A stretch of 64,000 bases of DNA from Clostridiales bacterium (GTDB taxonomy: Bacteria; Bacillota; Clostridia; Christensenellales; Aristaeellaceae): positions 2,790,001-2,854,000 of the forward strand of contig CP069419.1 of the NCBI GenBank assembly GCA_017569285.1, read 5' to 3'. The translations under genes were made by a program, and so were the position numbers. This document shows positions 27,739 through 31,207 of the stretch, piece by piece. Numbering within the stretch: the stretch's first letter is position 1; every line of letters begins with the position of its first letter. The notes under the pieces are model-generated. The model did not search any database, was not told the origin of the DNA, and worked only from the letters and a program-made list of their open reading frames with translations.

Positions 27739-28290
27739 TTATTTCCACTGAACCGCTGCAACCAGTTCATCGGTGGCTTCCTCCAGGGATTTCCGGGAGA
27801 AAGCGGACAGGGAGAAGATGTAGGTTCCGCAGCTGCCGGTGATCCGGATGCTGCGCTGGAAGACGGTGATGCTGGAATTGGTGAGGCCCACCAGCATTTC
27901 CGCATCGCAGACGAGCACGGGAACGCCCCAGAGCTCCGTTTCAGCGGCTTCCGAGACCTCATAGCTTTTCATGGTGTTTCCCTTGGCCGCCTGCTGGGAA
28001 CTCATAGCCGCCTCGGCATTCCGGAGCATGGTCGTGAATTCTTCCGCCGCAACCGGTTCCGTCGACGGAAGCCAGATCGCGCTGACGGCGGAGGTGGAAA
28101 CTTCGCCGGTGACGGTCCGGTAGTAGACAAACAGCGGCTGCCCGACCACCTTGAAGCTGGAGTAGTCCAGCGGGACCGTCGTCTGCAGGGTGAAGTCCTC
28201 AAACTCCGAGGTAACCACGCGGTCCGCCGCGGCCGCGGCGCAGCCGAGGAGCATCACAGCGGACAGGAAAAGGGCGAGCAGGCGCTTCAT
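27739..28290 (-). CDS. Secreted protein of unknown function
   Basis: A 183-residue protein with a classical signal peptide (MKRLLALFLSAVMLLGCAAAAA); the LLGC could be a lipobox, although the residues after it are Ala-rich. AAGGAGGG precedes the ATG. The mature part is a small alpha/beta domain (FEDFTLQTTVPLDY at its start, a hydrophobic LWGVPVLVCDAEML core), with no catalytic motif I recognise. It resembles the small secreted proteins of Clostridia that are usually left unnamed. It is convergent with the fructan operon and divergent from the ArsR operon. Confidence 0.6.
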   Translation of the reverse strand: MKRLLALFLSAVMLLGCAAAAADRVVTSEFEDFTLQTTVPLDYSSFKVVGQPLFVYYRTVTGEVSTSAVSAIWLPSTEPVAAEEFTTMLRNAEAAMSSQQAAKGNTMKSYEVSEAAETELWGVPVLVCDAEMLVGLTNSSITVFQRSIRITGSCGTYIFSLSAFSRKSLEEATDELVAAVQWK

Positions 28291-29570: not shown

Positions 29571-29591
29571 TTTTGGTACAAACAACCAAAA
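29571..29591. promoter_or_regulatory. Inverted repeat upstream of the RiPP locus
   Basis: TTTTGGT (29571-29577) and ACCAAAA (29585-29591), 7-base loop, about 35 bp upstream of the -35 box of the maturase promoter. It could be a regulator binding site; there is no direct evidence. Confidence 0.3.
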
Positions 29592-29626
29592 GTGATCAAT
29601 AACAACAAAATAAGTACTTGTTTTCC

Positions 29627-29655
29627 TTTACAAATAAAAGTATTTTTTATACAAT
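29627..29655 (+). promoter_or_regulatory. Predicted promoter of the radical SAM/peptide locus
   Basis: TTTACA (29627-29632), 17-bp spacer, TACAAT (29650-29655), within an AT-rich stretch (about 29560-29660) that contrasts with the GC-rich surroundings. Confidence 0.6.
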
Positions 29656-29690
29656 GTGATTATCCGGAACATGGATGAAGGAGCGTGGCA

Positions 29691-30836
29691 ATGGAAGGAC
29701 CGGTAAAGGGAGTTGAATTCCTGGCTCAGTTGCGGGAACAGGGTGGCAGGAAAAAACCCAATTTCCGGGATCTTGCCGGGCTGCTTGACCAGAAGGCCAG
29801 GCAGAAAGGGATTCCCATCAGCGGCCAGTTTGAACTGACACCGTTGTGCAACCTGGATTGCAAAATGTGCTATGTCCACCTGAATCCGGACCAGCTCCGG
29901 GGACACTCCGTACTTTCAGTTGCAGAATGGAAAGACATCATGCACCAGGCCTTTGAGGCGGGAATGTTCCAGGCCTCCCTGACCGGCGGCGAATGCCTGG
30001 CATATTCCGGATTTGACGAGCTCTATCTTTATCTGCATGGTCTTGGATGCGAGGTTAATATCCTTAGCAACGGTGTGTTGCTCGACGAGAAGCGGATTCA
30101 GTTCTTCCGGGATCACAGGCCGGCTGATATCCAGATTACGCTGTATGGCTGGAACGATGATGTGTATGAGCGGGTAACTGGGAAGCGCACTTTCGAAACA
30201 GTTGTGCGGAATATCCAGATGGCGCAGAAAGCAAAATTATCTATTACGCTCTCTGTAACACCAAGTATCTACTTAGGGGAAGATGCACTGGAAACAGTTC
30301 GGGTTGCAAAGTCTCTATGTAGGGATGTAATTATTAATCCGATGATTTTTACTCCCCGAGAGGAAACTGGACGCTCAGGACAGATGGATGATCCCAGCTT
30401 GGATCTATATGTGCGGCTTTATCGGCTCGTAAATGAGATAAATGGGCAGGAATCTCGAGAAATATCTCCGGAACTGCTTCCAGCTCCTGGCGGGCCGTGC
30501 CACACCTGTACGGACTGCGGAATTAGGTGCGGTGGTGGCCGATCATCATTCACAGTGGATTGGAAGGGAATTTTAAGAGGTTGCAGTCGTTTGGACGGAG
30601 AACAGGGGTATCTGTTGGAGGAGAGCTTCAGTACAGTCTGGGCACGGATCAATGAGTGGTCGAACAGAATACCAAGGGTTCCTGAGTGCAAAGGCTGTCC
30701 TTATGAAGAAGTCTGTAACAACTGCGCGGCGAATGTGGCAATATTTGCTGAGCTTGGAAAGCAACCAATCGAGTTATGCAAACGGACGATGTATCTGGTT
30801 CAGAATGGTGTAATGCAGATTCCTGAATGCGACTGA
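29691..30836 (+). CDS. Radical SAM/SPASM peptide maturase
   Basis: A 381-residue radical SAM enzyme; AAGGAG 7 bases upstream supports ATG 29691 over GTG 29685. The [4Fe-4S]-SAM motif C-x3-C-x2-C is seen in LTPLCNLDCKMCYVH (Cys about 53, 57 and 60), followed by SLTGGECLAY. The C-terminal third carries a SPASM-type set of cysteines (CHTCTDCGIRCGGG, then GCSRL, then ECKGCPYEEVCNNCAAN) for auxiliary clusters. Such enzymes modify ribosomal peptides, for example by thioether or C-C crosslinks. A 64-residue Cys- and aromatic-rich peptide gene lies 85 bases downstream and is the likely substrate. From about base 30230 the codons become more AT-rich (TTA, ATA, AGA-type choices) than in the first half, suggesting a transferred or recombined gene. 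Confidence 0.88.
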   Translation: MEGPVKGVEFLAQLREQGGRKKPNFRDLAGLLDQKARQKGIPISGQFELTPLCNLDCKMCYVHLNPDQLRGHSVLSVAEWKDIMHQAFEAGMFQASLTGGECLAYSGFDELYLYLHGLGCEVNILSNGVLLDEKRIQFFRDHRPADIQITLYGWNDDVYERVTGKRTFETVVRNIQMAQKAKLSITLSVTPSIYLGEDALETVRVAKSLCRDVIINPMIFTPREETGRSGQMDDPSLDLYVRLYRLVNEINGQESREISPELLPAPGGPCHTCTDCGIRCGGGRSSFTVDWKGILRGCSRLDGEQGYLLEESFSTVWARINEWSNRIPRVPECKGCPYEEVCNNCAANVAIFAELGKQPIELCKRTMYLVQNGVMQIPECD

Positions 30837-30921
30837 TCCATCTCGGAATAGTTGGAATAACAAAGACACTCACCGGCATTTTCCGGTTTGTGAATAGAAA
30901 TCGAAAGAAAGGAGCAAAAAA

Positions 30922-31116
30922 ATGAAGAAGGCATATGAAAGCCCGGTAGTTGAAAAGGTTGATTTTGATTATGAAGACAATGTGGTTGCTTCTGGTTCAA
31001 TAGTTGAGACCAAAGATGGAGTAAAAAATTGTTGGTGCTGCAATGTAAACCCTAATCCCAAGCCCACTGTTTACACTTGGTGGCCTTTTATTTTCTTCTG
31101 CTGCCGCCGGTATTAA
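30922..31116 (+). CDS. Candidate RiPP precursor peptide
   Basis: A 64-residue peptide preceded by AGAAAGGAG. The leader part MKKAYESPVVEKVDFDYED is the K-x-Y-x-x-P-x-x-E type of N-terminus common in putative modified-peptide precursors of gut Clostridia. The C-terminal part holds five cysteines in two groups (NCWCC at about 36-40 and FCC near 60-61), Asn/Pro repeats (NPNPKP) and an aromatic run (WWPFIFF), and ends RRY. It has no signal peptide and no enzyme motif. It lies directly after a radical SAM/SPASM maturase and before a strong terminator, so it is best read as its substrate. Alanine-Ser-Gly-Ser near residues 25-28 may be where the leader ends, but no protease or exporter gene is adjacent. 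Confidence 0.7.
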   Translation: MKKAYESPVVEKVDFDYEDNVVASGSIVETKDGVKNCWCCNVNPNPKPTVYTWWPFIFFCCRRY

Positions 31117-31157
31117 TTTCTGAAACAAAACGAGATAATGGTTGTATAACCTGAATG

Positions 31158-31207
31158 GCCCCCCCTAGAAGAGAACCTCAAAGGGTTCGAATTCGGGGGG
31201 CTTTTTT
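31158..31207 (+). terminator. Strong terminator of the RiPP locus
   Basis: A C-rich arm (31158-31165) pairs with a G-rich arm (31195-31201), enclosing a smaller hairpin GAACC/GGTTC. Six T residues follow (31202-31207). Confidence 0.8.

Follow-up and report, generated by a model that had tools for sequence, protein, structure and literature searches.

A radical SAM/SPASM maturase and its YxxP-leader precursor as a probable satellite of a dispersed RiPP system in a Clostridiales bacterium

Results and Discussion

A two-gene locus with its own flanking signals

We identified a two-gene locus in a 64,000-nt stretch of the genome of a Clostridiales bacterium (assembly GCA_017569285.1, contig CP069419.1, positions 2,790,001 to 2,854,000; hereafter the window). 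The locus encodes a radical SAM/SPASM peptide maturase and, after a gap of 85 nt, a Cys-rich precursor peptide (Table 1). An initial annotation had described both reading frames and their spacing, a CX3CX2C motif and SPASM cysteines in the maturase, and a 64-residue peptide with five Cys, an NPNPKP stretch and a WWPFIFF run. All of these are present, the motif at C53/C57/C60 together with seven SPASM-type Cys. The GC content is 50% for the maturase gene and 41% for the peptide gene, compared with 58% for the window.

Table 1. Features of the locus, in window coordinates
Feature	Position	Strand	Remarks
Conserved promoter box CAACCAAAAGTGATCAATAACAACAAAA, 17-nt spacing to TTTAC	29583..29631	+	Common to the hub and one satellite
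Sigma-70-type promoter TTTACA-17-TACAAT	29627..29655	+	Aligned with the hub, a satellite and two related genomes
Radical SAM/SPASM peptide maturase, 381 aa	29691..30836	+	Likely start ATG 29691; GTG 29685 is an alternative
Precursor peptide, 64 aa	30922..31116	+	Leader spans residues 1-23 and is predicted to be cut at VVA|S
Predicted core peptide, residues 24-64	30991..31113	+	Five Cys, aromatic WWPFIFF run; cut predicted from the -3/-1 pattern
Terminator-like hairpin, then T-run	about 31157..31207	+	Folding energy compared with shuffles

The locus was also proposed to have its own promoter and a strong terminator. As a sequence match alone, TTTACA-17-TACAAT does not exceed chance (one found against 2.5 expected in shuffled sequences). 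However, it sits at a fixed place behind the conserved promoter box. The hairpin at the 3' end folds at -29.5 kcal/mol (z -2.86, with equal folding in 2 of 200 shuffles) and is followed by a T-run, but it is absent from the output of a consensus scanner. No Rfam family matches at its gathering threshold between positions 28000 and 33000. By eye, an inverted repeat (TTTTGGT/ACCAAAA) lies just 5' of the box at 29571-29591.

The maturase

The CX3CX2C motif is kept in all 84 aligned members of the family, as are the SPASM-type Cys at 280, 298, 333, 336, 342 and 345; the seventh, C363, is found in 83 of the 84. CX3CX2C followed by a seven-Cys SPASM pattern is what is expected of a radical SAM/SPASM peptide maturase. 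The usual SPASM spacing is CX3C, and the window maturase has CX2C instead (C342-C345). Pfam Radical_SAM matches at 71.4 bits, and Pfam SPASM at 16.1 bits, under its 21.5 cut-off.

Among solved structures, SkfB and SuiB are the nearest to a structure model of the maturase (pLDDT 90.9), and SkfB also ranks first by profile; the structural matches include the epimerase EpeE as well as SuiB, which is the streptide synthase. Approximately 43 residues, modeled as two lower-confidence helices, precede the barrel, and no RRE-like winged helix is found there. The model suggests that the maturase has no RRE domain of its own and no room for one before the barrel.

We did not file the maturase under a named family, as none of the best 25 of its 65 NCBIfam matches reaches a curated cut-off. 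The sactisynthase models score far too low (SkfB 53 of 300 bits, AlbA 45.7 of 850), as does PapB (29.8 of 340 bits), and these best 25 do not include the SCIFF maturase model. PADLOC matches to viperin were set aside because they probably reflect the shared radical SAM core. Relatives on plasmids comprise 198 records, all below 60% identity and at 20-30% among the 20 matches listed. A locus on the C. difficile plasmid p_TW11 (L194), in which two radical SAM genes, a 59-aa hypothetical protein, an S8 peptidase and an ABC transporter lie in a row, was rejected as a relative since its genes are different; it is a separate RiPP-like cluster.

Leader and core of the precursors

The window peptide matches no family in NCBIfam or Pfam, in keeping with the suggestion of the initial annotation that its class does not obviously follow the SCIFF, thuricin or ruminococcin C patterns. 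A scan of 19 precursors gave three matches, two to the tryglysin model (best E 0.013) and one to an unrelated model (E 0.094), all of them too weak to accept. We also discarded a frame error in the window core, since by eye the other frames stop early.

The leader consensus is KxYxxPx[AV]E..xFx[YF]...[VI].AS. In an alignment of 79 distinct precursors, where the P at Y+3 and the Y/F itself are present by selection, F occupies Y+10 in 78 and V, I or L occupies Y+16 in 76. A at Y+18 (61 of 79) and S at Y+19 (59 of 79) are less constant, the AS pair sometimes lying one residue later. Signal peptidases follow a -3/-1 rule, which here corresponds to a hydrophobic residue at -3 and Ala at -1, then Ser. 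Such a pattern predicts that the leader is cut at VVA|S. With a conserved leader, a variable core and an adjoining modifying enzyme, the precursors have the organization of RiPPs.

The window core ([M+H]+ 4858.27 if unmodified) has its Cys at peptide residues 37, 39, 40, 60 and 61. It is the only five-Cys core among those compared, and no close homologue of this core was found. Across 81 cores (2360 residues; the L016 and L068 precursors are counted here and lie outside the 79-precursor leader set), Cys makes up 7.0% of residues, with at least one in 78 cores and at least two in 67. In the 52 two-Cys cores the loop spans 6-19 residues. Ser at -2 and Gly at -1 of the Cys are enriched 2.7-fold and 2.3-fold, partly because the leader motif ends there. 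Tyr is enriched approximately 2.4-2.5-fold at -3 (14/139) and +4 (13/133), and no residue around the Cys is near-constant in the 81 cores. Some cores recur at several loci: NDPNGQY.KC in L014, L016 and L021 (as NEPNGQYFKC in L023), and GDVGRGRGRGGGCDGVPYHRN in L015, L029 and L102. The core of the window precursor is not among these recurring ones. A sub-branch (L060, L075, L082, L088 and L090) has KxFxxP leaders and cores with 0-1 Cys; its precursors are mostly upstream of the maturase, and no PqqD match was found nearby.

Pairing of maturase and precursor

The pairing of maturase and precursor is conserved. We retained the best 80 of 103 loci with maturase relatives, mainly from MAGs of rumen and gut Clostridia, with other representatives in Prevotella/Bacteroidales, Coriobacteria and one Synergistaceae. 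The initial annotation had named absence of the peptide beside homologous maturases as the result that would count against it. Instead, in 62 of these 80 loci a leader profile detects a leader-bearing peptide on the maturase strand within 1 kb, with 83 matches in such positions vs 7 elsewhere in 853 kb. These counts are partly circular because the profile was built from these loci themselves (58 picks by pattern, from which six were removed by hand along with duplicates, and to which four from the genome under study were added).

A search with the window peptide alone, with a check for CX3CX2C, is independent of that profile. Among 200 genomes at the family level it matched 11, including the source genome, and gave 13 loci outside the latter. 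An ORF with CX3CX2C lies within approximately 1.5 kb at 11 of the 13; of the remaining two, one is near a contig end and one is inside a 556-aa frame. In the genus (45 genomes), searched with 30 hand-picked leaders, a leader occurs in 10 of the 13 genomes that encode a family maturase scoring 180 bits or more vs 1 of the 32 that do not (Fisher P 9e-7), one of the ten, in G029, being weak (E 0.008).

Two departures from the simple pair were observed. At G020:C6:120917 (L182, L187) a leader-bearing precursor has no family maturase within the surrounding 13 kb. The clusters L030 and L036 contain a second radical SAM gene (Pfam-checked for L030 only), and L036 also has a second leader type, MKKMYQTPKAHKVDYSFQEQ.

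A hub cluster elsewhere in the genome

The genome encodes four family maturases (490-896 bits) and five leader peptides, each beside a family maturase. One of these loci, hereafter the hub (L014, C1:2149-2154 kb), lies 0.67 Mb from the window locus. Besides its maturase and two precursors, it encodes a PqqD/HPrK-like fusion, an S26-like protease and an ABC transporter. The C-terminal PqqD domain of the fusion (53.2 bits vs a cut-off of 23.4) is the only one above cut-off in the genome, where two further matches fall below it at 13-14 bits. The N-terminal P-loop part resembles HPrK-like proteins and was assigned by BLAST to a relative with an Hpr_kinase_C match of 20.1 bits, under the 33.3 cut-off. 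The labels HPrK-like and S26-like both derive from sub-threshold Pfam matches in relatives, the hub protease itself having none. That protease has a single match in the genome. Ser, His and Asp are invariant in 20 of 20 aligned relatives, and the profile of the hub-type protease matches SEC11A (E 3e-6). A model of one relative (pLDDT 87.8) gives a best Foldseek E of 1e-3, with signal peptidases mixed among LexA-type proteins.

The initial annotation was correct that neither a protease nor an exporter adjoins the pair, and no match to the processing genes of the hub was found in the window, but both functions are encoded elsewhere in the genome. Its reading of the locus is supported, but it missed the set of four loci, the promoter box described below, and the RRE, protease, kinase-like protein and exporter of the hub. 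At the 2254-kb locus the sole match to a hub gene is an unrelated ABC protein.

Hub genes are common near relatives of the maturase. Within 5 kb and on the same strand, the best 80 of 103 loci have PqqD in 60, HPrK-like in 55, S26-like in 45 and ABC in 25 cases, the last count including weak matches to other ABC proteins. PqqD is missing within 5 kb at 11 of the 62 leader-bearing loci, and nine loci have PqqD and no detected leader; many contigs end nearby. In the genus, no hub kinase-RRE match was found in 3 of the 13 genomes with a family maturase (G018, 89% complete; G026, 89%; G038, 60%), and 10 of the 32 genomes without one have at least a weak match. In a tree of the maturases, the hub enzyme clusters with its counterpart from L026, another hub (support 0.885), and the window enzyme is sister to that of the 2157-kb locus (support 0.969).

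A common promoter box

The genome contains three exact matches to the pattern AATARCAACAAA-N17-TTTAC, one each at the hub, the window locus and the 2157-kb locus, and all three are equidistant from the start codon (-94 by script count). One match with two mismatches lies elsewhere in this genome. At the fourth locus the box is 7 nt instead of 17 nt from the -35 element, placing it 10 bp nearer, or approximately one helical turn less; the only other match to this 7-nt form in the 45 genomes is at a satellite in G018. Allowing at most one mismatch, the 17-nt form has nine matches in the 45 genomes, eight of which are beside family genes or leaders, and among these eight the one in G016 adjoins a weak maturase-like fragment only. 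The box at G019:C45 has no known family gene beside it. Reversed patterns under the same conditions gave 1 match (17-nt) and 5 matches (7-nt). The 17-nt pattern was written after seeing the window, the hub, one satellite and G006, and the 7-nt pattern after its two matches.

The box is not general to the family. With up to five mismatches it was not found in the 700 nt 5' of the maturase in L016, L017, L019, L021, L023, L024, L025, L028, L029 or the C5 locus of G018. In the same interval L020 has a box with five mismatches, L026 with three and L027 with two. L023 has a box-like site farther upstream, before the first of two maturases in G019. At G016:C6:26718-26930, a 182-aa frame behind the box includes what is apparently an N-terminal piece of a maturase (41% identity across 39 residues).

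A gene divergent from the hub and next to the box (L014:2524-3990, minus strand) encodes a protein with an HTH-like N-terminal fusion, also seen in L022, L023 and L026. Its C-terminal part is presumably UDP-glucose-dehydrogenase-like, and a gene for such an HTH-Ugd protein is likewise divergent from the G016 box. Full-length copies occur in genomes of the genus that have no maturase (G001, G007, G022, G027 and G031). This fusion may be the regulator that reads the box; the peptides would then be tied to the metabolism of envelope sugars.

The corresponding site in a sister species (G006, 79% complete; L186:6720-7050) contains the promoter and another precursor, ending in SWSWSWSWNFNFWDLLKKIFH, without a maturase. 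Its flanks are 90-96% identical to those of the window locus, and 63 nt of the promoter region are 89% identical. The precursor directly follows the promoter, and its leader DNA is identical to that of the window at 51 of 75 positions. No family maturase and no match to the hub kinase-RRE protein was found in this 79% complete genome. Since flanks and promoter are kept, the precursor differs and the maturase is missing, the site itself stayed in place and its interior turned over. By eye, the TTTTGGT/ACCAAAA repeat is present here as in the window, and is absent from the hub and the 2157-kb locus.

Proposed pathway and alternatives

We consider it probable that the pair belongs, as a satellite, to a dispersed RiPP system in which the hub provides the RRE, protease and transporter, and that its product carries Cys-based crosslinks. 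The genus members that have a maturase and no kinase-RRE match, those with the converse, and the G006 site tell against this reading and lower its odds slightly. The window maturase would act on the core at the C terminus of its neighboring precursor and most likely install radical crosslinks through cysteine sulfur. Judged from the composition of the cores, this is the likeliest chemistry. By analogy with the RRE and protease of the system for linear polyphosphorylated peptides (LPP), the KxYxxP leader would be held by the one PqqD/RRE domain of the genome, fused to the HPrK-like kinase of the hub. The signal-peptidase-like serine protease would then remove the leader at VVA|S, and the hub ABC transporter would export the product. 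Hub and satellites would be switched on together through the common promoter box. Given the distance of the hub, we infer that it serves the window precursor in trans; co-regulation of hub and satellites and export of the product likewise follow from genomic context. A role as a bacteriocin or as a signal between gut bacteria seems most likely.

The maturase might instead perform other chemistry, such as epimerisation or a C-C or ether crosslink, leaving the Cys to form disulfides, and the kinase might phosphorylate the Ser at the cut site as in LPP. EpeE and SuiB among the structural matches, the typical pair of Cys at a distance compatible with a disulfide and the enrichment of Tyr at -3 and +4 of the Cys all accord with this, as does the Ser at Y+19, which is one residue from the LPP phosphoserine position when counted on the published motif. 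We nevertheless find this account rather unlikely: Cys is present in nearly every core, and there is no near-constant acceptor residue around it. Another explanation would be a self-sufficient pair resembling sactipeptide or ranthipeptide systems, making Cys-to-carbon crosslinks without an RRE and leaving the remaining steps to housekeeping proteases and transporters. The two-gene layout, the Cys-rich cores and SkfB as top structural match suit such a pair, as do the maturases of G018, G026 and G038, where the hub kinase-RRE protein was not detected. However, PqqD lies within 5 kb of three quarters of the best 80 of 103 relatives, the maturase model has no RRE-like winged helix before its barrel, the SkfB and PapB scores are a fraction of their cut-offs, and the promoter box is common to the hub and the window locus. 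We therefore regard this explanation as unlikely.

The turnover seen at the G006 site raises the further question of whether the window locus is a decaying or recently shuffled satellite, in which promoter and leader persist in a pair that is no longer productive. The unusual five-Cys, hydrophobic core, for which no close homologue was found, and the G016 box beside an apparent maturase fragment would fit this. However, the window maturase is full length with all its radical SAM and SPASM Cys, and box, spacing, leader and terminator are intact, which makes decay very unlikely.

A probable satellite of this kind leads to a broader and more tentative proposal, which we put at slightly below an even chance: a regulon with one hub of RRE, kinase, protease and exporter, and scattered, interchangeable cassettes of maturase and precursor behind a common promoter box. 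If so, new products could be added or swapped at fixed sites while the processing machinery stays unmoved. Because satellites lack such neighbors, mining of gene neighborhoods can miss them, and the promoter box offers a means of finding them. The varied cores around one hub would be a natural test set for leader-guided modularity.

Comparison with known RiPP systems

Ranthipeptides (SCIFF/PapB) combine a SPASM maturase with a short Cys-containing precursor, as is the case here. However, the PapB score is low and the window peptide belongs to no NCBIfam family. Sactipeptides are defined by S-to-C-alpha thioethers. The pair resembles sactipeptide systems (SkfB, AlbA) in its radical SAM/SPASM maturase and Cys-containing precursor, with SkfB as the nearest solved structure. 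In contrast to these, the model has no N-terminal RRE, the leader is different and the sactisynthase scores are far below cut-off.

The closest organization is that of the LPP and paeninodin machinery, which is the best reading of the family by analogy. In LPP systems an RRE binds a YxxP leader and directs the signal-peptidase-like enzyme that cuts it (PMC13381572, Nat Commun 2026). Common to both are a YxxP leader in which the second residue after the Pro is small and hydrophobic, conserved precursor N termini with variable cores, an ABC exporter, and a PqqD-type RRE and HprK-like kinase, which here occur in the hub only (PMC13381572). A signal-peptidase-I-like Ser/His/Asp protease is also common to both, here in the hub and not the window and with weak profile and fold matches. 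The published LPP leader, YxxPxVLxHQxIxFETxxS, is matched in part: YxxP and V/A/I at Y+5 are found here, and HQ and FET are absent. The family further differs in its radical SAM/SPASM maturase as partner, its mostly two-Cys cores, the fusion of RRE and kinase in the hub, and the outlying satellites of maturase and precursor. The main text of the LPP paper contains neither 'radical SAM' nor 'rSAM' (PMC13381572).

Paeninodin-type lasso peptides have a Y/WxxP leader read by an RRE, and an HprK-like tailoring kinase (PMC13381572). They resemble the present family in YxxP leader, RRE and HPrK-like kinase; unlike in those systems, the ORF lists for the surroundings of the window locus and the hub showed neither a lasso cyclase nor a B2 protease. 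We found no description of this leader together with a radical SAM enzyme in the titles, abstract openings and text passages searched (including PMC13289728, PMC10352776, PMC12710340 and PMC9062424), which come largely from open-access papers. Within that literature, the family is an undescribed radical SAM variant of the RiPPs that use YxxP leaders, RREs, kinases and signal peptidases. It spans rumen and gut Clostridia and Bacteroidales, and it would join these RiPPs with radical SAM maturases, two subjects so far studied separately.
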